From a virus: 30,240 nucleotides of DNA. The DNA lies in IMG/VR virus record IMGVR_UViG_3300017786_000082, positions 1 through 30,240 of that record, one strand, 5' to 3'. Each line of letters opens with the position of its first letter. Within the stretch, counting starts at the first letter, position 1. This document shows, piece after piece, positions 6,457 through 28,390 of the stretch. The notes below the pieces were generated by a model. It was not told where the DNA came from and made no database searches. It saw only the letters and a list, made by a program, of their open reading frames with translations. The position numbers and the translations under genes are program-made.

Positions 6457-6984
6457 ATGGCTATTTTAGGCGTAGATGACTTTAAATCCAAGTTGACAGG
6501 TGGCGGTGCCCGTGCTAACTTGTTTAAAGCCACACTTAACTTTCCTGGTTATGCCGGAGCAAATGTTGAGCTTGCATCATTCATGTGTAAAGCTGCTCAG
6601 CTTCCTGCTTCGATCATTGCACCAATTACTATTCCGTTCCGTGGACGTCAATTGCAAATTGCAGGCGATCGTACATTTGAACCTTGGTCAGTGACAATCA
6701 TCAATGATGTTCAAATGGAAACACGCAGTGCTTTCGAACGTTGGATGAATGGTATTAATCAGCATAATGCAAATACTGGTCTAACAAACCCAGTCGACTA
6801 CCAAGCCGACATGATTGTAGAACAGTTAAACAAAGCAGGTGAAACTGTGAAGCGTTATGATTTCCGTGGGACTTTCCCGACTAACATTGCAGCAATCGAC
6901 GTATCGTACGATTCAGAAAATGTTATCGAAGAGTTCACTGTTGAGCTACAAGTTCAATATTGGGAATCAGATACTACTTCATAA
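6457..6984 (+). CDS. 19: Tail tube protein gp19
   Basis: Tail tube subunit, which forms the inner tube through which DNA passes. The 175-aa protein has the family's landmarks: an N-terminal GARANLFKATLNFP, the loop CKAAQLPASIIAPITIPFRGRQLQIAGDRTFEPW, the helix ETRSAFERWMNGIN and a C-terminal strand EEFTVELQVQYWE (each quoted in part). T4 gp19 has 163 aa. It follows gp18 by 13 nt, with TAAGGAGA as ribosome-binding site, and shares the gp18 late promoter. Confidence 0.94.
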   Translation: MAILGVDDFKSKLTGGGARANLFKATLNFPGYAGANVELASFMCKAAQLPASIIAPITIPFRGRQLQIAGDRTFEPWSVTIINDVQMETRSAFERWMNGINQHNANTGLTNPVDYQADMIVEQLNKAGETVKRYDFRGTFPTNIAAIDVSYDSENVIEEFTVELQVQYWESDTTS

Positions 6985-12403: not shown

Positions 12404-12937
12404 ATGCCATATCAACCAAATATTAATTTCTCAGAACAAGCGACGACTACGCTTATAGAAAACCTGACATATATTACTCCTTCAGGGTTTAGGCTAGTCA
12501 TTGATTCTCAAAAATATCCAAATGCTCAGTATACTGTTCAAACAATTGCATTACCAGATATGAGCGTCTCAGCTGCTATACTTAATACCCCAATGAGAAA
12601 TATTGGAATGGCTCCTGATAAAGTTGAATATAATCCATTTGATTTAACGTTTCTTGTCGATGAAGAAATGAATAACTACAAAGAAATTCATGATTGGATA
12701 CTTGGCTTGGTTACTGAAGATGACTACGGCAATAGAAAAGAACGTGATATTATTCTTCAAGTATTAAATAGCCATAATAACGTATGCAATGAAATACAAT
12801 TTGTGGATGCTTATCCAATCAATTTAAGCTCTTTGCCCTTTGATGCCACTACAACGGATGTAGAATATCTTACAGCTAGCGTCACATTTCAGTACTCTTA
12901 CTTTAAGTTTAAACCTAAGCCTAGCTCCGGATATTAG
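12404..12937 (+). CDS. 3: Tail completion protein, gp3-like
   Basis: Probable tail tube terminator of the T4 gp3 type, which ends tube growth under gp15. The product has 177 aa, the same size as T4 gp3 (176). The middle part (LNTPMRNIGMAPDKVEYNPF, then DLTFLVDEEMNNYKEIHDWILGL) resembles what marine T4-like phages carry under the name gp3, directly before uvsY as here. The tube-like fold is also shared with gp19, so it could be annotated as a second tube-fold protein. GTGGAGG is a strong ribosome-binding site. I rely on order and remembered family features. Confidence 0.62.
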   Translation: MPYQPNINFSEQATTTLIENLTYITPSGFRLVIDSQKYPNAQYTVQTIALPDMSVSAAILNTPMRNIGMAPDKVEYNPFDLTFLVDEEMNNYKEIHDWILGLVTEDDYGNRKERDIILQVLNSHNNVCNEIQFVDAYPINLSSLPFDATTTDVEYLTASVTFQYSYFKFKPKPSSGY

Positions 12938-15355: not shown

Positions 15356-15392
15356 ATTATACCACAGTTTGCAACTTTTGTACACAGTTAAT
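15356..15392 (-). promoter_or_regulatory. Leftward TGTACA-type promoter
   Basis: Reading the complement strand, ATTAACTG (15392-15385) leads into TGTACA (15384-15379), then a 17-nt spacer ending in TGTGG, then TATAAT (15361-15356). It is the mirror image of the rightward promoter 37 bp away and would start RNA near 15349, running antisense through 14925-15323 and uvsW. No coding gene is visible on that strand. Confidence 0.72.
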
Positions 15393-16091: not shown

Positions 16092-16820
16092 ATGCCGCGT
16101 ATTACTGTATTTGGAAACGGATTTGTAGGTTCTGCTTATGCTGATTATTTTGAAGAAAATGGATATACTGTAACACGAGTTGATCCCTTACAGGGATTAT
16201 ATGCTACAGAAGAATGCTATAAACAAGCTTCTATAGTATGTGTACCAGCACCTACACTTAAAGACGGATCTATAGATTATAGTATCATAAACGATATCAT
16301 TCAAAAGATAGAAATGCCAGTCATGGTAAAGAGCACTGTGCTTCCTGACTATGCTGAGTGCTTAGATGCTAATGTAGTATATTCTCCAGAGTTTTTAACC
16401 GCTTCAAATGCAGCAGAAGATATTAGAAATAATAAGGATGTTGTTATAGGAGGAGAGGATACACTATTCTGGTCAACAGTATTCAAATCTTTAAATAAGA
16501 CAGTACATACAACTGATGCAAAAACAGCATCGTTTATGAAATATGCTGTTAACACATTCCTTGCCACTAAGGTTGTATTTATGAATCAGCTGTTAGATCA
16601 ATATGATGGCGATTGGAATGAACTAAAATCATTACTTAAATTAGATCGAAGACTAGGTACTTCTCACTTTGATGTTCCTGGTCCTGATGGAGAACGAGGG
16701 TTTGGTGGAGCCTGTTTCCCAAAGGATGTGCAGGCATTCTTAGAATTCACATCGGATGAGTACCTACAGGGTATGAGTGTCCTACATAAAGCAAGTTTAG
16801 CAAACAGAAAGTGGAGATAA
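16092..16820 (+). CDS. Nucleotide-sugar (UDP-glucose-type) 6-dehydrogenase, short form
   Basis: NAD-dependent oxidation of a nucleotide sugar (in the family: UDP-glucose to UDP-glucuronate, or UDP-ManNAc/GalNAc to the uronate). Rossmann motif GNGFVG (8-13), conserved SPEFL with Glu100, FMKYAVNTFLATKVVF with Lys150 and Asn154, and the active-site loop GFGGACFPKD with Cys208 are all present. The protein stops at 242 aa, whereas the family has about 390-450 aa, so the C-terminal nucleotide-sugar-binding domain is missing. It may form a different dimer or use a different substrate. It begins 2 nt after gp55, inside the transcription/recombination block, with the epimerase next. Confidence 0.82.
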   Translation: MPRITVFGNGFVGSAYADYFEENGYTVTRVDPLQGLYATEECYKQASIVCVPAPTLKDGSIDYSIINDIIQKIEMPVMVKSTVLPDYAECLDANVVYSPEFLTASNAAEDIRNNKDVVIGGEDTLFWSTVFKSLNKTVHTTDAKTASFMKYAVNTFLATKVVFMNQLLDQYDGDWNELKSLLKLDRRLGTSHFDVPGPDGERGFGGACFPKDVQAFLEFTSDEYLQGMSVLHKASLANRKWR

Positions 16821-16821
16821 A

Positions 16822-17556
16822 ATGACTTATCATGTATTACTTACAGGCCATGAGGGTTACGTTGGAAACAAACTACAAGATGAACTTCTCAAAAGAGATG
16901 TTATTGTAGGTACTTTTAAAGGAGATCTGCTAGATATAGATTGGGAGAATAAACCAAAACAGTTTGATATGGTAGTACATCTTGCTGGCCTTGCAGGTGT
17001 TCGTCGATCATTTAGAGAACCTAAAGAGTATTATAAGAATAACGTTGAGTTATCACGAAGGATTTTTAAATACTGTGAACGAACACGAACTGAAGTAATG
17101 TATGCATCTTCATCTAATGCACATGAATGGTGGTTAAATCCATATGCAACCACTAAACAAATGATTGAAGAAATGGCATCAATGCTTACTGTTCGCCATA
17201 TCGGAATGCGTTTTCATACTGTATGGCCAGGACGTACTGATATGCTATACGAGCGATTGCGCCGTAACGAAGTTGATTATATTAATGCTGATCATTTTAG
17301 AGATTGGATTCATATTGATGATTTAACAAATGGCATATGTACAATCATGCAAAAATGTTATATAATGGACAAGAAGGTAGTTGATATCGGTACCGGTCAT
17401 GTAACTCCAGTATCTGAACTTGCTAAGAAGTTTAACTTTACAGGTGAGTTTCGTAAAGGTGAAGCACCAGGTGAACGTATGGCAACACGCGCTGATATAC
17501 AATACCTACTAGATTTAGGTTGGACTCCTAAACATAACATTATGAACGAAGGTTAA
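16822..17556 (+). CDS. NAD-dependent sugar epimerase/dehydratase (short extended-SDR)
   Basis: Short-chain dehydrogenase/reductase of the nucleotide-sugar epimerase type. It has TGHEGYVG (8-15) for NAD binding, the VVHLAGLAGVRRSFREP stretch, the catalytic SSS (97-99) and YATTK (Tyr108, Lys112), and a C-terminal VDIGTGHVTPVSELAKKF block found in NDP-sugar epimerases (quoted in part). At 244 aa it is shorter than usual (about 310-340). Next to the dehydrogenase it suggests a two-step route such as UDP-glucose to UDP-glucuronate to UDP-galacturonate, but substrates cannot be read from the sequence. An internal TGTACA-N17-TATAAT promoter lies at 17338-17366. Confidence 0.8.
   Translation: MTYHVLLTGHEGYVGNKLQDELLKRDVIVGTFKGDLLDIDWENKPKQFDMVVHLAGLAGVRRSFREPKEYYKNNVELSRRIFKYCERTRTEVMYASSSNAHEWWLNPYATTKQMIEEMASMLTVRHIGMRFHTVWPGRTDMLYERLRRNEVDYINADHFRDWIHIDDLTNGICTIMQKCYIMDKKVVDIGTGHVTPVSELAKKFNFTGEFRKGEAPGERMATRADIQYLLDLGWTPKHNIMNEG
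17338..17366 (+). promoter_or_regulatory. Possible internal TGTACA-type promoter ahead of gp47
   Basis: TGTACA (17338-17343) and TATAAT (17361-17366) are separated by exactly 17 nt, as in the intergenic members of this family, though without the AACTG extension or the -10 TG. It lies in the epimerase gene 194 nt before gp47, which has no intergenic promoter. Confidence 0.5.
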
Positions 17557-20349: not shown

Positions 20350-20386
20350 ATTAACTGTGTACATCCCTTTCAGATTGTGGTATAAT
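20350..20386 (+). promoter_or_regulatory. TGTACA-type promoter for the peptidase-VWA gene
   Basis: AATTAACTG runs into TGTACA (20358-20363), 17-nt spacer with TG two bases before the -10, TATAAT (20381-20386). It lies 28 nt before the ATG at 20414 and begins 6 nt after the gp46 stop. Confidence 0.85.
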
Positions 20387-20413: not shown

Positions 20414-22549
20414 ATGATTAGTGAATCAAATATACTAGCTAGGTTACTTGCTAAAGAGAATATCAGTGTACAATACGGTAATTACCAAACCGCTTTCTTT
20501 GATGTAGAAAAGCGTGTGCTTGGGCTTCCATTGTGGAAAGACCGTGGCAAAGACGTACACACATTATTAGTTGGTCACGAGGTTGGCCATGCATTATACA
20601 CACCTGCCGACGGATGGCATAATTCTACTACTGAAATCCCTGGCATTCCTCGCTCATACATAAACGTTGTTGAAGACGTACGTATTGAGAAGCTCGTTCA
20701 ACGTACCTATCCAGGTCTTGTCTCCTCATTTAAACGTGGATACGCAGTACTGAACGACGAGGATTTCTTCAAGATCGCGGGGCGTTCTCTCTCCTCATAC
20801 TCTGTTGTTGATCGTATCAACATCAAAGCTAAGCTCCGCGATCTTGTTGAAGTTGAATTTACTGAATTAGAAGCACCTATTGTTGAACAGGTTATGGCTG
20901 TAGAAACATGGGATGACGTTATTAAAGCATGTAAAGCATTATATGACTTTATGAAGGAGCAGCAACAAGATGATGAGCAAGATGTATCGGCCAGTCCTCA
21001 GATTGATTTCTCTGATGAAGAATATGATTTCCCAACGGGTGACGATTCTTCGGAGGACGATTCTACTATGGACAGTTCAGAGGCAATTGAATCGGATTCA
21101 GAAGAAGATGAAGCTGGACAAGAGTTGGTCAAAGCTGAATCATCCGCTTCCGAAGAATCCAACGAAGAATATAAATCCTCAACAAAAAGTTCAGAAGTAA
21201 ATACTGATATTGATGTAGTAGAAACTGACGCTGCATTCCGTGAAAGCGAAGAAGATCTTCTTGACAAAGATGAGTCTGGAAGACAGCATCTATATACAAA
21301 TGGCTTTTGTAAAGCTCAAGTTGATGCTTGTATTATAAAGTATGCTGATCTTAAAAAGGCTAGACTTCGTAAACTTGAAGAGCATTCAATTGATCCTAAA
21401 TTACATGAAGATGAAGTTAAGTCAATTGAAGTTTTTGAGCAAGAGACTAAAGGCGTAGTAACTGTCATGGCTCGTGAGTTTGAAATGCGTAAAGCAGCAT
21501 ATCGTTTGCAGCGTGCACAAACTTCAAAATCTGGAACTATCAATGTAAATGCCTTGCATAGCTATAAGTACAACGAAGATATTTTTCGTCGTGTTACACA
21601 GTTAGCAGATTCAAAATCACATGGCATGGTTATGTTCGTTGATTACTCTGGATCTATGTCAAATGTTATTGGTAAAGTTATTCGTCAGGCAGTAGTTCTT
21701 GCTGACTTCTGTACAAAGGTTAGCATTCCATTTTCTATCTATGGCTTTACTTCTGTATACGGTGATCGTGAGAGCATTGGAAGTTTTCCTGATCATATCT
21801 CAGAGAAAAACTGTAGCATCTTTGAATTAATTAGTTCTTCCCTATCTAGAGCTGATCAGAAAGAAGCTCGTGATACACTTCTAAAACAATCTGTTATTCT
21901 TGATACAAGTTGGAGATGTGCATTTGCATCAGATGCTGAGAACTTAGGATCTACTCCATTGTATGAAACAATTCTTTGTTCAGAGTTTATCATCAAAGAA
22001 TTCAAAGCAAAGCACTCAATTCAAAAAGTAAATGCTATATTTCTTACTGATGGAGAAGGTGACAGCTTGTATACATATTCACCTTCTTATGATCATAACG
22101 TTAGAACATATGGAAGTGCACTTGCGATTAAGTTTAATAACAAAATCGTTAAATCAAATTCTCGCTATAGTGTTGGTTCTAATCTACTTACAGAACTTAA
22201 AAATATTCCTGGTGTATCTGTTATTGGTTTCTTTGTATGTAAAGATATGTACGAATTCAAAGGACAGGTTTATAGAACTTATAGGTATAACGACAAAATC
22301 ACCACAGATGAAAATATAGCAGATGCTAGAAAGGCTTATAATAAAGATAAGTTCTGGTCAGCAGACAATACATTAGGATATGACAAATACTTTATACTAA
22401 AAGGACATTCATTAAATACTGAAAATGATGAATTATCTGTAACACCACATGCTACAAAAGCTCAGATCACAAAGGCATTTAAGAAGCATGCATCTTCAAA
22501 GAAAGGGAATCGTGTACTTGCCACTCAGTTTGCTAAGCTGGTGGCATAG
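20414..22549 (+). CDS. HExxH metallopeptidase-like plus VWA domain protein (CobT-like)
   Basis: A 711-aa two-domain protein. The N-terminal part (1-180) carries VGHEVGHAL with His55, Glu56, His59 and, 28 residues on, VEDVRIEK (Glu87 as possible third zinc ligand): a gluzincin-like layout. Residues about 185-290 are a Ser/Glu/Asp-rich linker. The C-terminal part has a von Willebrand A domain: MFVDYSGSMS (Asp410, Ser412, Ser414 of the MIDAS), LGSTPLYE with the MIDAS Thr, and IFLTDGEGDS. Such VWA proteins work with MoxR/CobS AAA+ ATPases, and one is encoded two genes downstream. Relatives in marine T4-like phages are annotated as peptidase or CobT-like; true function unknown. Cobalt chelation is not implied. 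Confidence 0.78.
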   Translation: MISESNILARLLAKENISVQYGNYQTAFFDVEKRVLGLPLWKDRGKDVHTLLVGHEVGHALYTPADGWHNSTTEIPGIPRSYINVVEDVRIEKLVQRTYPGLVSSFKRGYAVLNDEDFFKIAGRSLSSYSVVDRINIKAKLRDLVEVEFTELEAPIVEQVMAVETWDDVIKACKALYDFMKEQQQDDEQDVSASPQIDFSDEEYDFPTGDDSSEDDSTMDSSEAIESDSEEDEAGQELVKAESSASEESNEEYKSSTKSSEVNTDIDVVETDAAFRESEEDLLDKDESGRQHLYTNGFCKAQVDACIIKYADLKKARLRKLEEHSIDPKLHEDEVKSIEVFEQETKGVVTVMAREFEMRKAAYRLQRAQTSKSGTINVNALHSYKYNEDIFRRVTQLADSKSHGMVMFVDYSGSMSNVIGKVIRQAVVLADFCTKVSIPFSIYGFTSVYGDRESIGSFPDHISEKNCSIFELISSSLSRADQKEARDTLLKQSVILDTSWRCAFASDAENLGSTPLYETILCSEFIIKEFKAKHSIQKVNAIFLTDGEGDSLYTYSPSYDHNVRTYGSALAIKFNNKIVKSNSRYSVGSNLLTELKNIPGVSVIGFFVCKDMYEFKGQVYRTYRYNDKITTDENIADARKAYNKDKFWSADNTLGYDKYFILKGHSLNTENDELSVTPHATKAQITKAFKKHASSKKGNRVLATQFAKLVA

Positions 22550-22567
22550 TGTGACATTAATGTTACA
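22550..22567. repeat. 18-bp near-palindrome upstream of a promoter
   Basis: TGTGACATTAATGTTACA reads almost the same on both strands (one G-T pair breaks symmetry). It lies directly after the stop of the VWA gene and about 35 bp before the TGTACA element, a place where an operator or a weak transcript end could sit. No function is shown. Confidence 0.3.
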
Positions 22568-22593
22568 ACTAAAATAAAATGAAAAAAAGTGAA

Positions 22594-22630
22594 ATTAACT
22601 GTGTACAAAGGCTTTAAACTATGGTAGAAT
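22594..22630 (+). promoter_or_regulatory. TGTACA-type promoter for the membrane protein / MoxR genes
   Basis: GAAATTAACTG runs into TGTACA (22602-22607), 17-nt spacer, and a -10 of TAGAAT (22625-22630) preceded by TG. The -10 differs by one base from the other family members. It is 28 nt before the ATG of the 43-aa protein. Confidence 0.8.
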
Positions 22631-22657
22631 GGTACCATAATAATTGAGGAGACAGTT

Positions 22658-22789
22658 ATGACTTTACGTGAAAAGATATCAGAATACATGGGCTTTGCCT
22701 TTATCGCTATATTCGCTTTAGGATGGATCGATGTTGGCTTTGGTCCGCAATACACTTGGTGGAACCTGATCTCATACCTAGCTAACTAA
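22658..22789 (+). CDS. 43-aa single-pass membrane protein
   Basis: A short open frame with a good ribosome-binding site (TTGAGGAG, 22644-22651), its own TGTACA promoter and a stop 13 nt before the AAA+ ATPase gene. The peptide begins MTLREKISEYM, continues with a hydrophobic stretch GFAFIAIFALGWIDVGFG (residues about 12-29, one likely membrane helix) and ends QYTWWNLISYLAN with aromatic, interface-type residues. Its position between the VWA protein and the MoxR-like ATPase suggests that it could anchor that pair to the membrane, but this is only context. I do not recognise a family. Confidence 0.65.
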   Translation: MTLREKISEYMGFAFIAIFALGWIDVGFGPQYTWWNLISYLAN

Positions 22790-22802
22790 GAGGATATATA
22801 TT

Positions 22803-23966
22803 ATGAACTTGATTGAAAAAACATTATCGACTACACTTGCATCACGCTTTGCTGATCAAGTAGAATTTCGTCCAGCACAGGTTACAGCAATTGCTCGTGA
22901 ACTTGGCATAAAAGATGGCGAAGCATATAAATATACTACATCGTTCCCAAAGGTTCGACGTGGCGTATATAACTTAGAGTCAGTAGTAGTGCCTCTACGT
23001 CAAATCCCTAATAGCGAGAAAAAATCCGTGGCAAGTGCAGTACAGTCTATTGTTAACAACGAGATCTTTGTACCAGCAAAAGACCAGTATTATGTCCCTT
23101 GGGGAAATTCAAAAGATGTAGAAATGATTGTTAAGTCTGGATCATTCTATCCTACATTCATTACTGGTTTATCTGGTAATGGTAAGACTACTATGGTTGA
23201 GCAAGCATGTGCTCGCACAAACCGAGAGTACGTCCGTGTTCAAATCACTCCTGAAACAGATGAAGATGATTTGATTGGTGGCTTCCGGCTTATTGATGGT
23301 GAGACCGTTTTTGCAAAAGGTCCTGTTATTAAAGCTATGGAAGCAGGTGCTCTGTTGCTGATCGATGAGATCGACCGTGGTTCAAATAAGATCATGTGTT
23401 TACAAGGTGTGCTAGAAGGCAAACCTATCATGATCAAAAAGACTGGTGAAGTTATCAAACCTGCTGAAGGATTCAATGTAATATCTACTGCTAATACTAA
23501 AGGTCAAGGTTCTGAAGACGGACGCTTTATTGCAGCAACTATTATCGATGAAGCTTTCCTTGAGCGTTTTACTATTACACTTGAACAGCCTTATCCTTCA
23601 ATGGCAATCGAAAAGAAGATTATCATAAAGCATATGGATAAGTTTGATTGTAAAGATAATGACTTTGCCGATCGTTTAACTCAATGGTCTGAGACTATTC
23701 GTAAAACATTTGAAGACGGCGGAGTAGACGATATCGTATCAACACGTCGTTTGTGTCATATCGTACAAACGTTTTCTATCTTTGATGATCGTACTAAATC
23801 AATCGATCTTTGTATTAGTCGCTTTGACAATGATACAAAAGAAGCTTTTAAAGATCTATATGCTTTGATTGATGATACAACATCTACAGAAGATGAAAGC
23901 TCTGAGCTTTCTGGTGCTGATATAGATAACATTCTTGATAACGCAATTTACTCAACAGAAGGATAA
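22803..23966 (+). CDS. MoxR/CobS-like AAA+ ATPase
   Basis: AAA+ ATPase of the MoxR/CobS clade (387 aa). Walker A is GLSGNGKTT (122-130), Walker B LLLIDEID (185-191), sensor 1 STANT (228-232), and the arginine finger lies in LERF (Arg255). The ETDEDDLIGGF loop (151-161) is the clade's helix-2 insert. The first 65 residues (FRPAQVTAIARELGI..., KVRRGVYNLESVV) look like a small helix-turn-helix-type domain, an addition not found in bacterial CobS. Marine T4-like phages carry close relatives annotated as CobS. MoxR-type ATPases remodel proteins together with VWA partners, and one is encoded at 20414-22549. Confidence 0.88.
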   Translation: MNLIEKTLSTTLASRFADQVEFRPAQVTAIARELGIKDGEAYKYTTSFPKVRRGVYNLESVVVPLRQIPNSEKKSVASAVQSIVNNEIFVPAKDQYYVPWGNSKDVEMIVKSGSFYPTFITGLSGNGKTTMVEQACARTNREYVRVQITPETDEDDLIGGFRLIDGETVFAKGPVIKAMEAGALLLIDEIDRGSNKIMCLQGVLEGKPIMIKKTGEVIKPAEGFNVISTANTKGQGSEDGRFIAATIIDEAFLERFTITLEQPYPSMAIEKKIIIKHMDKFDCKDNDFADRLTQWSETIRKTFEDGGVDDIVSTRRLCHIVQTFSIFDDRTKSIDLCISRFDNDTKEAFKDLYALIDDTTSTEDESSELSGADIDNILDNAIYSTEG

Positions 23967-25487: not shown

Positions 25488-25564
25488 CAGGGTGTAGCTC
25501 AGTCTGGTAGAGTGCTACACTTGGAATGTAGAAGTCGTTGGTTCGAGTCCAGCCACCCTGACCA
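25488..25564 (+). tRNA. tRNA-Pro(UGG)
   Basis: A complete cloverleaf folds by hand: acceptor CAGGGTG (25488-25494) with CACCCTG (25554-25560), D stem GCTC/GAGT, anticodon stem CTACA/TGTAG, loop CTTGGAA with anticodon TGG (25522-25524), a 5-nt variable region, T arm with TTCGAGT, discriminator A and an encoded CCA (25562-25564). The anticodon reads CCA and, by wobble, CCG proline codons. First base C is normal for bacterial tRNA-Pro. Confidence 0.93.
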
Positions 25565-25630: not shown

Positions 25631-26569
25631 ATGTCTAATGAATTTCTATGGGTTGAAAAGTATCGCCCATCTAAAATTGACGAATGTGTCTTACCAACCT
25701 CATTGAAAAAAGTATTCAATGAAATGGTTTCGACAGAACAATTGCCAAATATGTTATTTAGTGGTACAGCAGGTGTAGGTAAAACTACAGTTGCTAAAGC
25801 TCTATGTAATGAACTTGGCCTTGATTATATTATAATCAATGGTTCTGAAGAAGGCAACATCGATACACTTCGTGGCAAAATCAAACAGTTTGCTTCTAGT
25901 GTATCGTTACAGGGCGGTTATAAGGTAGTAATTCTGGATGAGGCTGATTACCTTAATCCTCAATCAACCCAACCCGCTTTACGTGGATTCATTGAAGAGT
26001 TCTCAAATAACTGTCGTTTTATTATGACATGTAACTTTAAGAATCGAATCATTGAACCTTTACATTCTCGGTGTTCTGTCTACGAGTTCGCTATACCGAA
26101 TGATCAAAAGCCTGCAATTGCTGGCATGTTCTTCAAGCGACTGATGGATATTCTTACAGCCGAGAATGTGGCGTTCGACAAGGCGGTCTTAGCACAACTT
26201 GTCGAACGTTACTTTCCAGACTGGCGTCGTGTCTTAAATGAATGCCAACGTTATTCCGTCAGTGGATCTATTGATGCTGGTGTCCTAGTCAATCTAGGAG
26301 ACAACAATGTTAAATCACTTATGGAAAAGCTTAAAGGTAAAGACTTTAAAGGCATGCGTCAATGGGTTGTAAACAATATTGATACTGAGCCTCAAGCTAT
26401 CTTTCGTGCTGTTTATGATAAGATGGCTGATCACTTACAACCACAATCTATTCCACAAGTTGTGCTCATACTTGCTGATTACCAATATAAAAACGCATTC
26501 GTCGCAGATCACGAGATGAATGTCGTTGCTTGTATGACTGAGATTATGGCAGGTGCAGAATGGAAGTAG
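25631..26569 (+). CDS. 44: Clamp loader large subunit gp44
   Basis: AAA+ ATPase subunit of the clamp loader that opens gp45 and places it on primer-template junctions. It has the LWVEKYRPSKIDE start, Walker A GTAGVGKT (45-52), Walker B VVILDEAD (99-106), the sensor-1 region FIMTCNFKN and the SRC motif HSRCSVYEF (Ser146, Arg147, Cys148), whose Arg acts in trans on the neighbouring subunit. Length 312 aa (T4: 319). Its stop overlaps the cytidylyltransferase gene. Confidence 0.95.
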   Translation: MSNEFLWVEKYRPSKIDECVLPTSLKKVFNEMVSTEQLPNMLFSGTAGVGKTTVAKALCNELGLDYIIINGSEEGNIDTLRGKIKQFASSVSLQGGYKVVILDEADYLNPQSTQPALRGFIEEFSNNCRFIMTCNFKNRIIEPLHSRCSVYEFAIPNDQKPAIAGMFFKRLMDILTAENVAFDKAVLAQLVERYFPDWRRVLNECQRYSVSGSIDAGVLVNLGDNNVKSLMEKLKGKDFKGMRQWVVNNIDTEPQAIFRAVYDKMADHLQPQSIPQVVLILADYQYKNAFVADHEMNVVACMTEIMAGAEWK

Positions 26570-26964
26570 TAGGTATCACCGCAGGTGCGTTCGATCTATT
26601 TCATGCTGGTCATGTGTTAATGCTTAAAGATGCAAGTAATCAATGTGATCACTTAATTGTTGCACTTCAAACAGATCCAAGCATAGATCGCAAAGAAAAG
26701 AATAAACCTGTTCAGTCAATGTATGAACGTTTTGTTCAAGTTGATGCTTGTAAGTATGTCGACGAGATTATACCTTATGAGACTGAAGATGATCTATATG
26801 CTTTAATTATGAATAATAATATAGATCTTCGTATTATTGGTAATGAATATCGTAATGAAGATTTTACCGCACGAGAAGTTGGACTTGAAATATACTACAA
26901 CGCGCGTAACCATCAATGGTCTACTACCGAACTGCGTGAAAGGATACTCAATGAATCCGTTTGA
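26560..26964 (+). CDS. Cytidylyltransferase-like nucleotidyltransferase
   Basis: A 134-aa member of the TagD / RfaE-C / PCT nucleotidyltransferase superfamily, which couples CTP (or another NTP) to a phosphorylated alcohol or sugar. The family's FDLFHAGHVLML with HxGH (His15, His18) is complete, a DRKEKNKPVQ-type loop follows, and the C-terminal WSTTELRERI (about 120-130) corresponds to the STTxLRxR signature (quoted in part). It overlaps gp44 by 10 nt and gp62 by 14 nt, so it is wedged between the two clamp-loader genes with tight coupling. Substrate unknown; glycerol-3-phosphate or a heptose/sugar phosphate are possibilities. Confidence 0.82.
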   Translation: MEVVGITAGAFDLFHAGHVLMLKDASNQCDHLIVALQTDPSIDRKEKNKPVQSMYERFVQVDACKYVDEIIPYETEDDLYALIMNNNIDLRIIGNEYRNEDFTAREVGLEIYYNARNHQWSTTELRERILNESV

Positions 26965-27805: not shown

Positions 27806-28390
27806 ATGATGAAAGAAAAAGTAATACTTACTTACTGTGATGGAGTCTTAGTTGACTGGGTTCATGGTTTTACCAAATGGATGGATAGCTTAGGATATAA
27901 GCGAGCATCCCCTGATATTGTATCTTATGATATGGAAATAATGTTTGGTATAGATCGCGGAGAATGTAAAAAACTTGTAAAGCATTTTAATACTAGTGCT
28001 GACATGAGATTTCTTTCCCCACTGCGAGATTCAATTAAATATGTACGTAAACTACATGAAGAACATGGATATGTTTTCCGCTGTATTACAAGCTTAAGCC
28101 TTAATCCGGCCGCAGCTGAATTGCGAAAACAAAATTTAGAACTTCTATTCGGACCTACTGCGTTCGAGGAAATAGTATGTTTAGATACTGGTGCAGATAA
28201 AGACGACGCACTAGAACAATATAGAAGTAGCGGATGCTACTGGATAGAAGATAAACCAGAAAACGCTGATTTAGGTTTGCGCATTGGTTTAAACAGTTTG
28301 CTAATTGCACACGGATTTAATGCTGACTATAAGGGATTATGTCCACGTGTAAAAAACTGGAAAGAAATTTATAACATTATTACAGGATAA
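27806..28390 (+). CDS. HAD-superfamily (5'-nucleotidase-like) protein with altered nucleophile
   Basis: A 194-aa protein of the phage 5'(3')-deoxyribonucleotidase-like HAD group. Motif I is normally DxDGVLxD, and here it reads YCDGVLVDW: residue 10 is Tyr where the nucleophilic Asp belongs, while Asp12 (general acid) and Asp17 remain. Motif II Thr/Ser is in CITSLS, and the acidic motif IV is WIEDKPENADLG. A helical cap lies between motif I and II. The codon is TAC, one base from the Asp codon GAC. The product may be catalytically dead, or use the remaining site for binding. AAGGAG precedes ATG 27806. Confidence 0.78.
   Translation: MMKEKVILTYCDGVLVDWVHGFTKWMDSLGYKRASPDIVSYDMEIMFGIDRGECKKLVKHFNTSADMRFLSPLRDSIKYVRKLHEEHGYVFRCITSLSLNPAAAELRKQNLELLFGPTAFEEIVCLDTGADKDDALEQYRSSGCYWIEDKPENADLGLRIGLNSLLIAHGFNADYKGLCPRVKNWKEIYNIITG

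Follow-up and report, generated by a model that had tools for sequence, protein, structure and literature searches.

Several described systems couple a MoxR-type AAA+ ATPase to a partner protein with a VWA domain. For NorQ/NorD, cryo-electron microscopy revealed a finger of the VWA domain in the ATPase pore and the N-terminal domain (N-domain) bound to the ring, with the VWA part rotating relative to the N-domain across a linker (PMC13036017). For the rubisco activase CbbQ/CbbO, mutants of the metal ion-dependent adhesion site (MIDAS) of CbbO kept ATPase activity and lost activase function (PMC5437159). Viral CobS/CobT proteins have been proposed to hijack the host subunit CobN, and the annotation 'peptidase' was called a mistaken label in this context (PMC8651126). 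In 2021, a MoxR-vWA pair with an N-terminal metallopeptidase was described in group 2.2 jumbo phages, for which a role in virion assembly was proposed (PMC7824862). Here, we analyzed a widespread pair of this kind, a 711-amino-acid VWA protein and a 387-amino-acid MoxR-type ATPase, commonly annotated as subunits of the vitamin-B12 cobalt chelatase and encoded by a marine T4-like phage on a stretch of 30,240 bases (IMG/VR virus record IMGVR_UViG_3300017786_000082, positions 1 to 30,240; hereafter the window).

Gene pairing, fold-level relationships and conserved residues are observed for this pair. From these we infer, with about even confidence, a CbbQO/NorQD-like MoxR AAA+/VWA remodelling machine whose N-domain would be an active zinc peptidase, so that the whole would act as an ATP-driven maturation or removal protease.

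A conserved metallopeptidase-like site in the VWA protein

The open reading frames (ORFs), the HEVGH motif, the downstream Glu, the MIDAS-type VWA domain and the ATPase, which a preliminary description of the window had pointed out, were all recovered in the sequence (Table 1). Conservation of HExxH had been set beforehand as the test by which the metallopeptidase proposal could fail. We collected 80 IMG/VR loci of T4-like relatives and aligned 78 sequences of at least 600 amino acids (77 from IMG/VR and the window). H55, E56 and H59 are kept in 77/77 readable sequences, the remaining row being incomplete at the motif. The larger set of H55, E56, H59, N84, E87, D88, R90 and E92 is identical in 75 of the 78 sequences, with the last Glu replaced by Asp in two and one row incomplete before the motif, while all 78 share the five MIDAS residues. 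Clustering at a 90% identity cut left 37 representatives, whose overall identity to the window protein is as low as about 30%; H55, E56, H59, A60, E87, D88, R90 and I91 are invariant in all 37. For the T4-like family, the proposal therefore withstood this test, with the motif intact in all readable relatives and in every representative.

In the AlphaFold2 (AF2) model of the protein (mean predicted local distance difference test score (pLDDT) 77, predicted template modelling score 0.72), HEVGH lies on helix 46–62 and E87 on helix 80–98, followed by a disordered acidic stretch (residues 192–263) and the VWA domain. In structure comparison, the protein is most similar to the VWA domain of NorD in its complex with NorQ (Z 16.8, 256 residues, root mean square deviation 7.0), with the MIDAS domain of Rea1/Midasin slightly below it in the same search. 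The C-terminal half thus combines a VWA fold with the DxSxS, T and D residues of a MIDAS VWA domain, while the N-domain shows the zincin-type sequence pattern of a conserved HExxH and a downstream acidic ligand. A Pfam scan assigned 0 families to the window VWA protein, and single relatives show weak scattered matches only. Since CbbO-like proteins keep this domain with the Glu replaced (see below), the Glu is not a requirement of the fold, and its invariance in the phage family argues for catalysis. As judged from its residues, the N-domain has an active-looking metallopeptidase site; the peptidase step, resting on conservation, is less certain.

Table 1 Positions of the analyzed features in the window
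Feature	Position	Strand	Evidence
Metallopeptidase-like VWA protein, 711 amino acids (phrog_459 'peptidase')	20414..22549	+	ORF; PHROG E=1e-173; AF2 model
HEVGH, residues 55-59; predicted zinc ligands H55 and H59, predicted catalytic E56	20576..20590	+	invariant in relatives
NVVEDVRIE, residues 84-92; E87 is the predicted third metal ligand on the next helix	20663..20689	+	N84, E87, D88 and R90 invariant
Acidic disordered linker, about residues 185-265	20966..21208	+	sequence; pLDDT <50 at residues 192-263
MIDAS DxSxS (D410-x-S412-x-S414) of the C-terminal VWA domain; T514 and D546 complete the set	21641..21655	+	invariant 78/78
Promoter-like element TTAACTGTGTACA, 17 bp, TATAAT	20351..20386	+	upstream of VWA gene; exact 13-mer plus -10 box
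Promoter-like element TTAACTGTGTACA, 17 bp, TAGAAT	22595..22630	+	upstream of 43-amino-acid ORF
Predicted membrane protein, 43 amino acids	22658..22789	+	ORF; homologues in 7 other loci only
MoxR-type AAA+ ATPase, 387 amino acids ('CobS', phrog_249)	22803..23966	+	AAA_5 5.9e-21; phrog_249 6.8e-110; CbbQ/NorQ structural matches
Predicted winged helix-turn-helix N-terminal domain of the ATPase, residues 1-60	22803..22982	+	AF2 secondary structure
Walker A GLSGNGKT, residues 122-129	23166..23189	+	G122, S124, G125, N126, G127, K128 and T129 invariant, 31 sequences
Walker B LLIDE, residues 185-189	23355..23369	+	L185, L186, D188 and E189 invariant

The ATPase and its pairing with the VWA protein

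The second protein matches AAA_5 with 75.4 bits (cut-off 22), and its model is most similar to CbbQ (Z 23.2 over 260 residues) and NorQ (Z 22.4), the next best structures reaching about 15. Sequence-profile matches in the PDB comprise Midasin, CobS (1.6e-29), NorQ and CbbQ. With an AAA_5-type domain, Walker A and B motifs and a CbbQ/NorQ-like fold, it is a MoxR AAA+ protein, and the earlier reading of the two genes as a MoxR-VWA pair is supported. The AF2 model predicts helices at residues 3–15, 24–33 and 38–46 and a beta-hairpin at 50–57 (pLDDT 84–95 for this block), an arrangement consistent with a winged helix-turn-helix and in line with the helix-turn-helix-like N-terminal domain noticed before.

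The ATPase gene was found just downstream of the VWA gene and on the same strand at 71/71 loci where an ATPase was detected, and the loci lacking a detected ATPase gene stop close to the VWA gene. In phage records, the numbers of matches to the two proteins are equal for Synechococcus phages (365/365), cyanophages (61/61) and Prochlorococcus phages (24/24), as totals per group and not record by record. Adjacency and the profile matches in Table 1 identify the window genes as a phrog_459/phrog_249 pair.

Between both genes, the window contains a 43-amino-acid ORF for a predicted membrane protein, which is preceded by a ribosome-binding site and a promoter-like element and therefore probably constitutes a separate small gene. 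Its homologues occur in seven loci besides the window, all of them closest relatives or near-identical copies, which differ too little to allow a test for selection. Most relatives have their VWA and ATPase genes too close together to accommodate such an ORF. No PHROG match was obtained for the protein, and Pfam matches remained below the cut-off. A three-gene system including this protein, put forward earlier as a membrane-associated device, was rejected, as the ORF was found only in the window and seven near-identical loci; among the three genes, co-occurrence holds for the VWA/ATPase pair.

Allowing up to 2 mismatches, the promoter-like element is present five times in the window (1.28 expected), located at 15379(-), 15422(+), 20351(+), 22595(+) and 27738(+), one of which reads ATAACTGTGTACA. 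Four of the five precede genes, namely the late sigma factor, the VWA gene, the 43-amino-acid ORF and a gene at 27806. Hence, the small gene does have the promoter-like element ascribed to it, but shares it with three other window genes including the VWA gene. Early or middle expression of the genes behind the element appears plausible. The elements at 15379(-) and 15422(+) are divergent, and the 15379 copy has no assigned minus-strand gene.

Relationship of the N-domain to CbbO and CobT

N-domains were compared profile to profile (hhalign) with column-shuffled controls as null. The window N-domain scored 81.2 against the N-domain of SSU5-, Rhizobium- and Nickie-type phages (null maximum 18.3) and 49.5–50.4 against the CbbO-like N-domain (null maxima 30.7 and 23.5). 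The SSU5/Rhizobium/Nickie-type N-domain in turn scored 49.8 over 114 columns against the N-domain of CobT (null maximum 20.9). The direct comparison of window and CobT is unconvincing alone (22.7, with 3/60 shuffles scoring at least as high; 22.2 and 0/100 in a shorter comparison), and the link between the two therefore depends on the SSU5-type phage proteins as a bridge. Homology of the window N-domain to sampled NorD-like N-domains was considered as well, and this comparison was not significant. For the VWA half, NorD-like proteins gave a score of 53.9 (hhalign, null maximum 23.7).

Among the CbbO-like proteins, a set chosen by adjacency to CbbQ_C genes, length and VWA domain and not by a CbbO-specific model, 23/23 contain H-[MIL]-A-A-H and, after it, E-D-x-R-V-[DE]...PGL, a pattern retaining both His and E-D, with another residue in place of the catalytic Glu. 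The phage family does not follow this pattern of HxAAH without catalytic Glu: it has Glu in 77/77 sequences, whereas the CbbO-like proteins have M, I or L in 23/23. As far as sequences can tell, one domain appears in three states, with a complete peptidase site in phages, metal ligands without the Glu in CbbO-like proteins and no HExxH in CobT; the comparison implies no direction of change, be it loss or gain of HExxH.

Besides that, one scan of genome contigs yielded nine loci, all phage-type relatives, and reached no cellular family. By sequence, the PDB includes structures of CobT and recent ones of CobS, but these are missing from the fold matches, which were drawn from a library reaching to April 2026. 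PF13203 (DUF2201) has no match in the window, and the PF13203 proteins retrieved from two phyla included too few of full length to build a profile. Outside the close family, 17 further phage proteins were checked individually, and most contain HExxH.

Genomic context of the pair

The window has a T4-like gene content, with genes for terminase, sheath, tube, portal, prohead protease, major capsid, UvsY, a UvsW-type helicase and a late sigma factor. Past the late sigma factor follow gp47, gp46, VWA gene/43-amino-acid ORF/ATPase gene, DUF3310 protein, sliding clamp, clamp loaders and a tRNA-Pro, and the gene order around the pair is the same in P-HM1 and HTVC008M. Of the representatives whose flank spans 2.5 kb or more, 20/23 have gp46 upstream of the pair, and 22/22 have gp45, gp44 or DUF3310 downstream of it. 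Phages of the SSU5, Rhizobium, Pseudomonas, Klebsiella and Stenotrophomonas types carry the pair at or near the gene for DNA polymerase III alpha, often with a ligase gene. This neighbourhood points to the replication phase of infection.

Further observations concern the rest of the window. The tRNA-Pro(tgg) gene at 25488–25564 stands alone in the replication region, between a phrog_639 transcriptional-regulator gene and gp44. Sugar-nucleotide genes are interspersed among the replication genes (16092–17556 and 26560–26964), comprising a UDP-glucose dehydrogenase-like gene, an epimerase-like ORF and a heptose adenylyltransferase-like ORF. Two tail-tube-like genes, both phrog_45, lie at 12404–12937 and 6457–6984, one of them placed after the major capsid gene. 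A VWA protein 93% identical to that of the window is encoded on a contig binned as a Rhodobacteraceae genome (L082:2497-4371), which may be a hint to the host or a binning artefact.

Possible functions of the pair

According to the published auxiliary-metabolic-gene reading, the two proteins are CobS and CobT subunits that work with host CobN and raise cobalamin during infection (PMC8651126). The profile match between the ATPase and solved CobS agrees with this, as do the remote homology of the N-domain to that of CobT via SSU5-type phages and the presence of CobN in Synechococcus elongatus, by which cyanobacterial hosts could provide the missing subunit. However, the ATPase reaches 65.1 bits with the CobS model TIGR01650, where the cut-off is 558.55, and the VWA protein yields no match to TIGR01651 or to Pfam CobT. 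HExxH was found in the first 260 residues of 0/31 cellular CobT proteins, all taken from the class to which a Rhodobacteraceae bin belongs, in line with the earlier statement that cobalt chelatases do not need this motif. No CobN is encoded in the 30-kb window, and the host could still contribute one. Relatives of the pair are present in Pelagibacter phage HTVC008M, Vibrio phage ICP2, Klebsiella phage KPC53, Salmonella phage SSU5 and E. coli K-12 phage PhiR41_1; to our knowledge, the hosts on which these phages are recorded (Pelagibacter, V. cholerae, Klebsiella, Salmonella, here LT2, and E. coli K-12) are not expected to have CobN. The PhiR41_1 pair (L211:4992-8431) was further detected on plasmids of 219 of the 5,426 complete E. 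coli genomes (4%) and on no chromosome. For B12 production, E. coli has been supplied with cobN, cobS and cobT from other bacteria (PMC6249242). We conclude that the pair is not a canonical cobaltochelatase and that a cobaltochelatase role is unlikely; the full scenario of raised cobalamin by way of host CobN seems highly improbable to us. We further argue that the 'peptidase' label has a basis in the residue data.

Two other explanations were considered. As a metal-insertion chaperone, the pair would bind a metal through HExxH..E for delivery, and the MoxR-VWA motor would open a metalloenzyme client without proteolysis. There is precedent in NorQD, which inserts iron with nitric oxide reductase as client (PMC13036017), and in the HxxxH and E-D of CbbO-like proteins, a metal site by sequence that lacks the catalytic Glu. 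A phage ribonucleotide reductase or Fe(II) oxygenase could serve as client; this link is a guess, and HTVC008M encodes a class Ia ribonucleotide reductase and 2-oxoglutarate-Fe(II) oxygenases. Such a chaperone would, however, leave the invariance of E56 in all 37 representatives unexplained, as CbbO-like proteins do without this residue, and we consider it rather doubtful. Processing of structural proteins by a virion-assembly chaperone or protease has been proposed for the analogous group 2.2 jumbo-phage pair of the same described architecture (PMC7824862). In the window, the pair sits in the replication region and not in the structural one, and a separate prohead protease (phrog_207) is encoded. 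T4-like heads require proteolytic maturation, which speaks for this role, but unrelated phages have their relatives of the pair close to DNA polymerase genes, and altogether we regard it as unlikely. Cyanophage-core virion proteins named in the text of a virion-proteomics paper are T4-GCs 15 and 190, neither of which is cobS.

The ATP-driven peptidase favoured here also faces several difficulties. Its activity, metal content and client are predictions, and the authors of the jumbo-phage study proposed virion assembly instead (PMC7824862). In the model, HExxH and E87 are carried by consecutive helices, and the fold lists of the whole protein are filled by matches to the VWA domain, which leaves a zincin fold of the N-domain as a candidate. 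Placement in the replication region may reflect merely a common timing of expression. Furthermore, Pseudomonas phages hairong and nickie and Stenotrophomonas phage ANB28 (loci L181, L216 and L213) keep the pair and lack HExxH, with DSEIAK, DSEISK and DREVST in its place, respectively; therefore, the peptidase site is not needed in every lineage.

With these points in mind, a working mechanism for the ATP-driven peptidase can be outlined. As the matching parts are present, the phage pair may follow the same motor logic as NorQD and CbbQO. A hexameric ATPase ring would hold the VWA protein, whose MIDAS site would dock an acidic residue of one specific client. ATP hydrolysis would then move or twist the VWA part relative to the N-domain across the acidic linker. 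In a less certain step, the N-domain, as an active zinc peptidase unlike its counterparts in CbbO and CobT, would clip the client after opening. The client would probably be a phage replication, recombination or transcription protein, or a host protein, in the replication phase. The 43-amino-acid membrane protein is not a component of the machine. A tentative, wider possibility is that a metallopeptidase driven by ATP and docked through its MIDAS occurs in phage-plasmids and in phages of several families without relationship to each other, where it would serve a dedicated client in DNA replication or in the takeover of the host. The cellular adaptors CobT and CbbO would then contain related peptidase domains that have been inactivated.

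If this wider reading is true, the 'viral cobalamin' interpretation of cobS and cobT in ocean viruses would be wrong. The domain comparison moreover provides a testable account of how the N-domains of CobT and CbbO are related to the phage domain. With a relative in an E. coli K-12 phage and on E. coli plasmids, the pair is accessible to experiments in a widely used laboratory species, for which a CobN would not be expected.

Comparison with known systems

The putative metallopeptidase-VWA proteins of DUF2201 (PF13203) resemble the phage protein in that, at the two loci sampled, HExxH and a DxSGS VWA motif are combined on a single chain, but their profile is unmatched by the window, and one of the two samples has an extra His five residues on (HELWHVLLAH) and not the E-D motif of the phages. 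CobS/CobT share with the window pair the MoxR ATPase, the VWA domain, an acidic linker and, by way of SSU5-type phage proteins, a remotely homologous N-domain; they differ in that 31/31 CobT proteins lack HExxH, and the window proteins fall outside the curated models and are not accompanied by CobN. NorQ/NorD provide the best structural match to the VWA half and, with CbbQ, to the ATPase, and likewise connect N-domain and VWA domain by a flexible linker, whereas the sampled NorD-like N-domains show no significant similarity to that of the phage. In the rubisco activase CbbQ/CbbO, the likeness extends to a MoxR ATPase of the same fold, a VWA domain with MIDAS and an N-domain whose HxxxH and FEDxRV[DE] align to the phage motif; the differences are M, I or L at the position of the catalytic Glu (23/23) and a motif located about 230 residues further from the N-terminus.

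The jumbo-phage pair of group 2.2 (ASV44728/ASV44729, known from text alone) has the same architecture by description and also belongs to T4-related phages; in the available part of that article, cyanophages are placed in group 2.1 and the pair is described for group 2.2, not 2.1 (PMC7824862). The preliminary term 'uncharacterised phage machine' is accordingly apt with regard to experiments, but the architecture was already known from jumbo phages, to which the window pair adds a member of an experimentally uncharacterised kind. Finally, the phrog_459 'peptidase' and phrog_249 'porphyrin biosynthesis' pair of cyanophages and pelagiphages (e.g. P-HM1 and HTVC008M) comprises the same families in the same order and at the same place between gp46/47 and gp45/44. 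The window pair shows no essential difference from it and adds the 43-amino-acid ORF between both genes.

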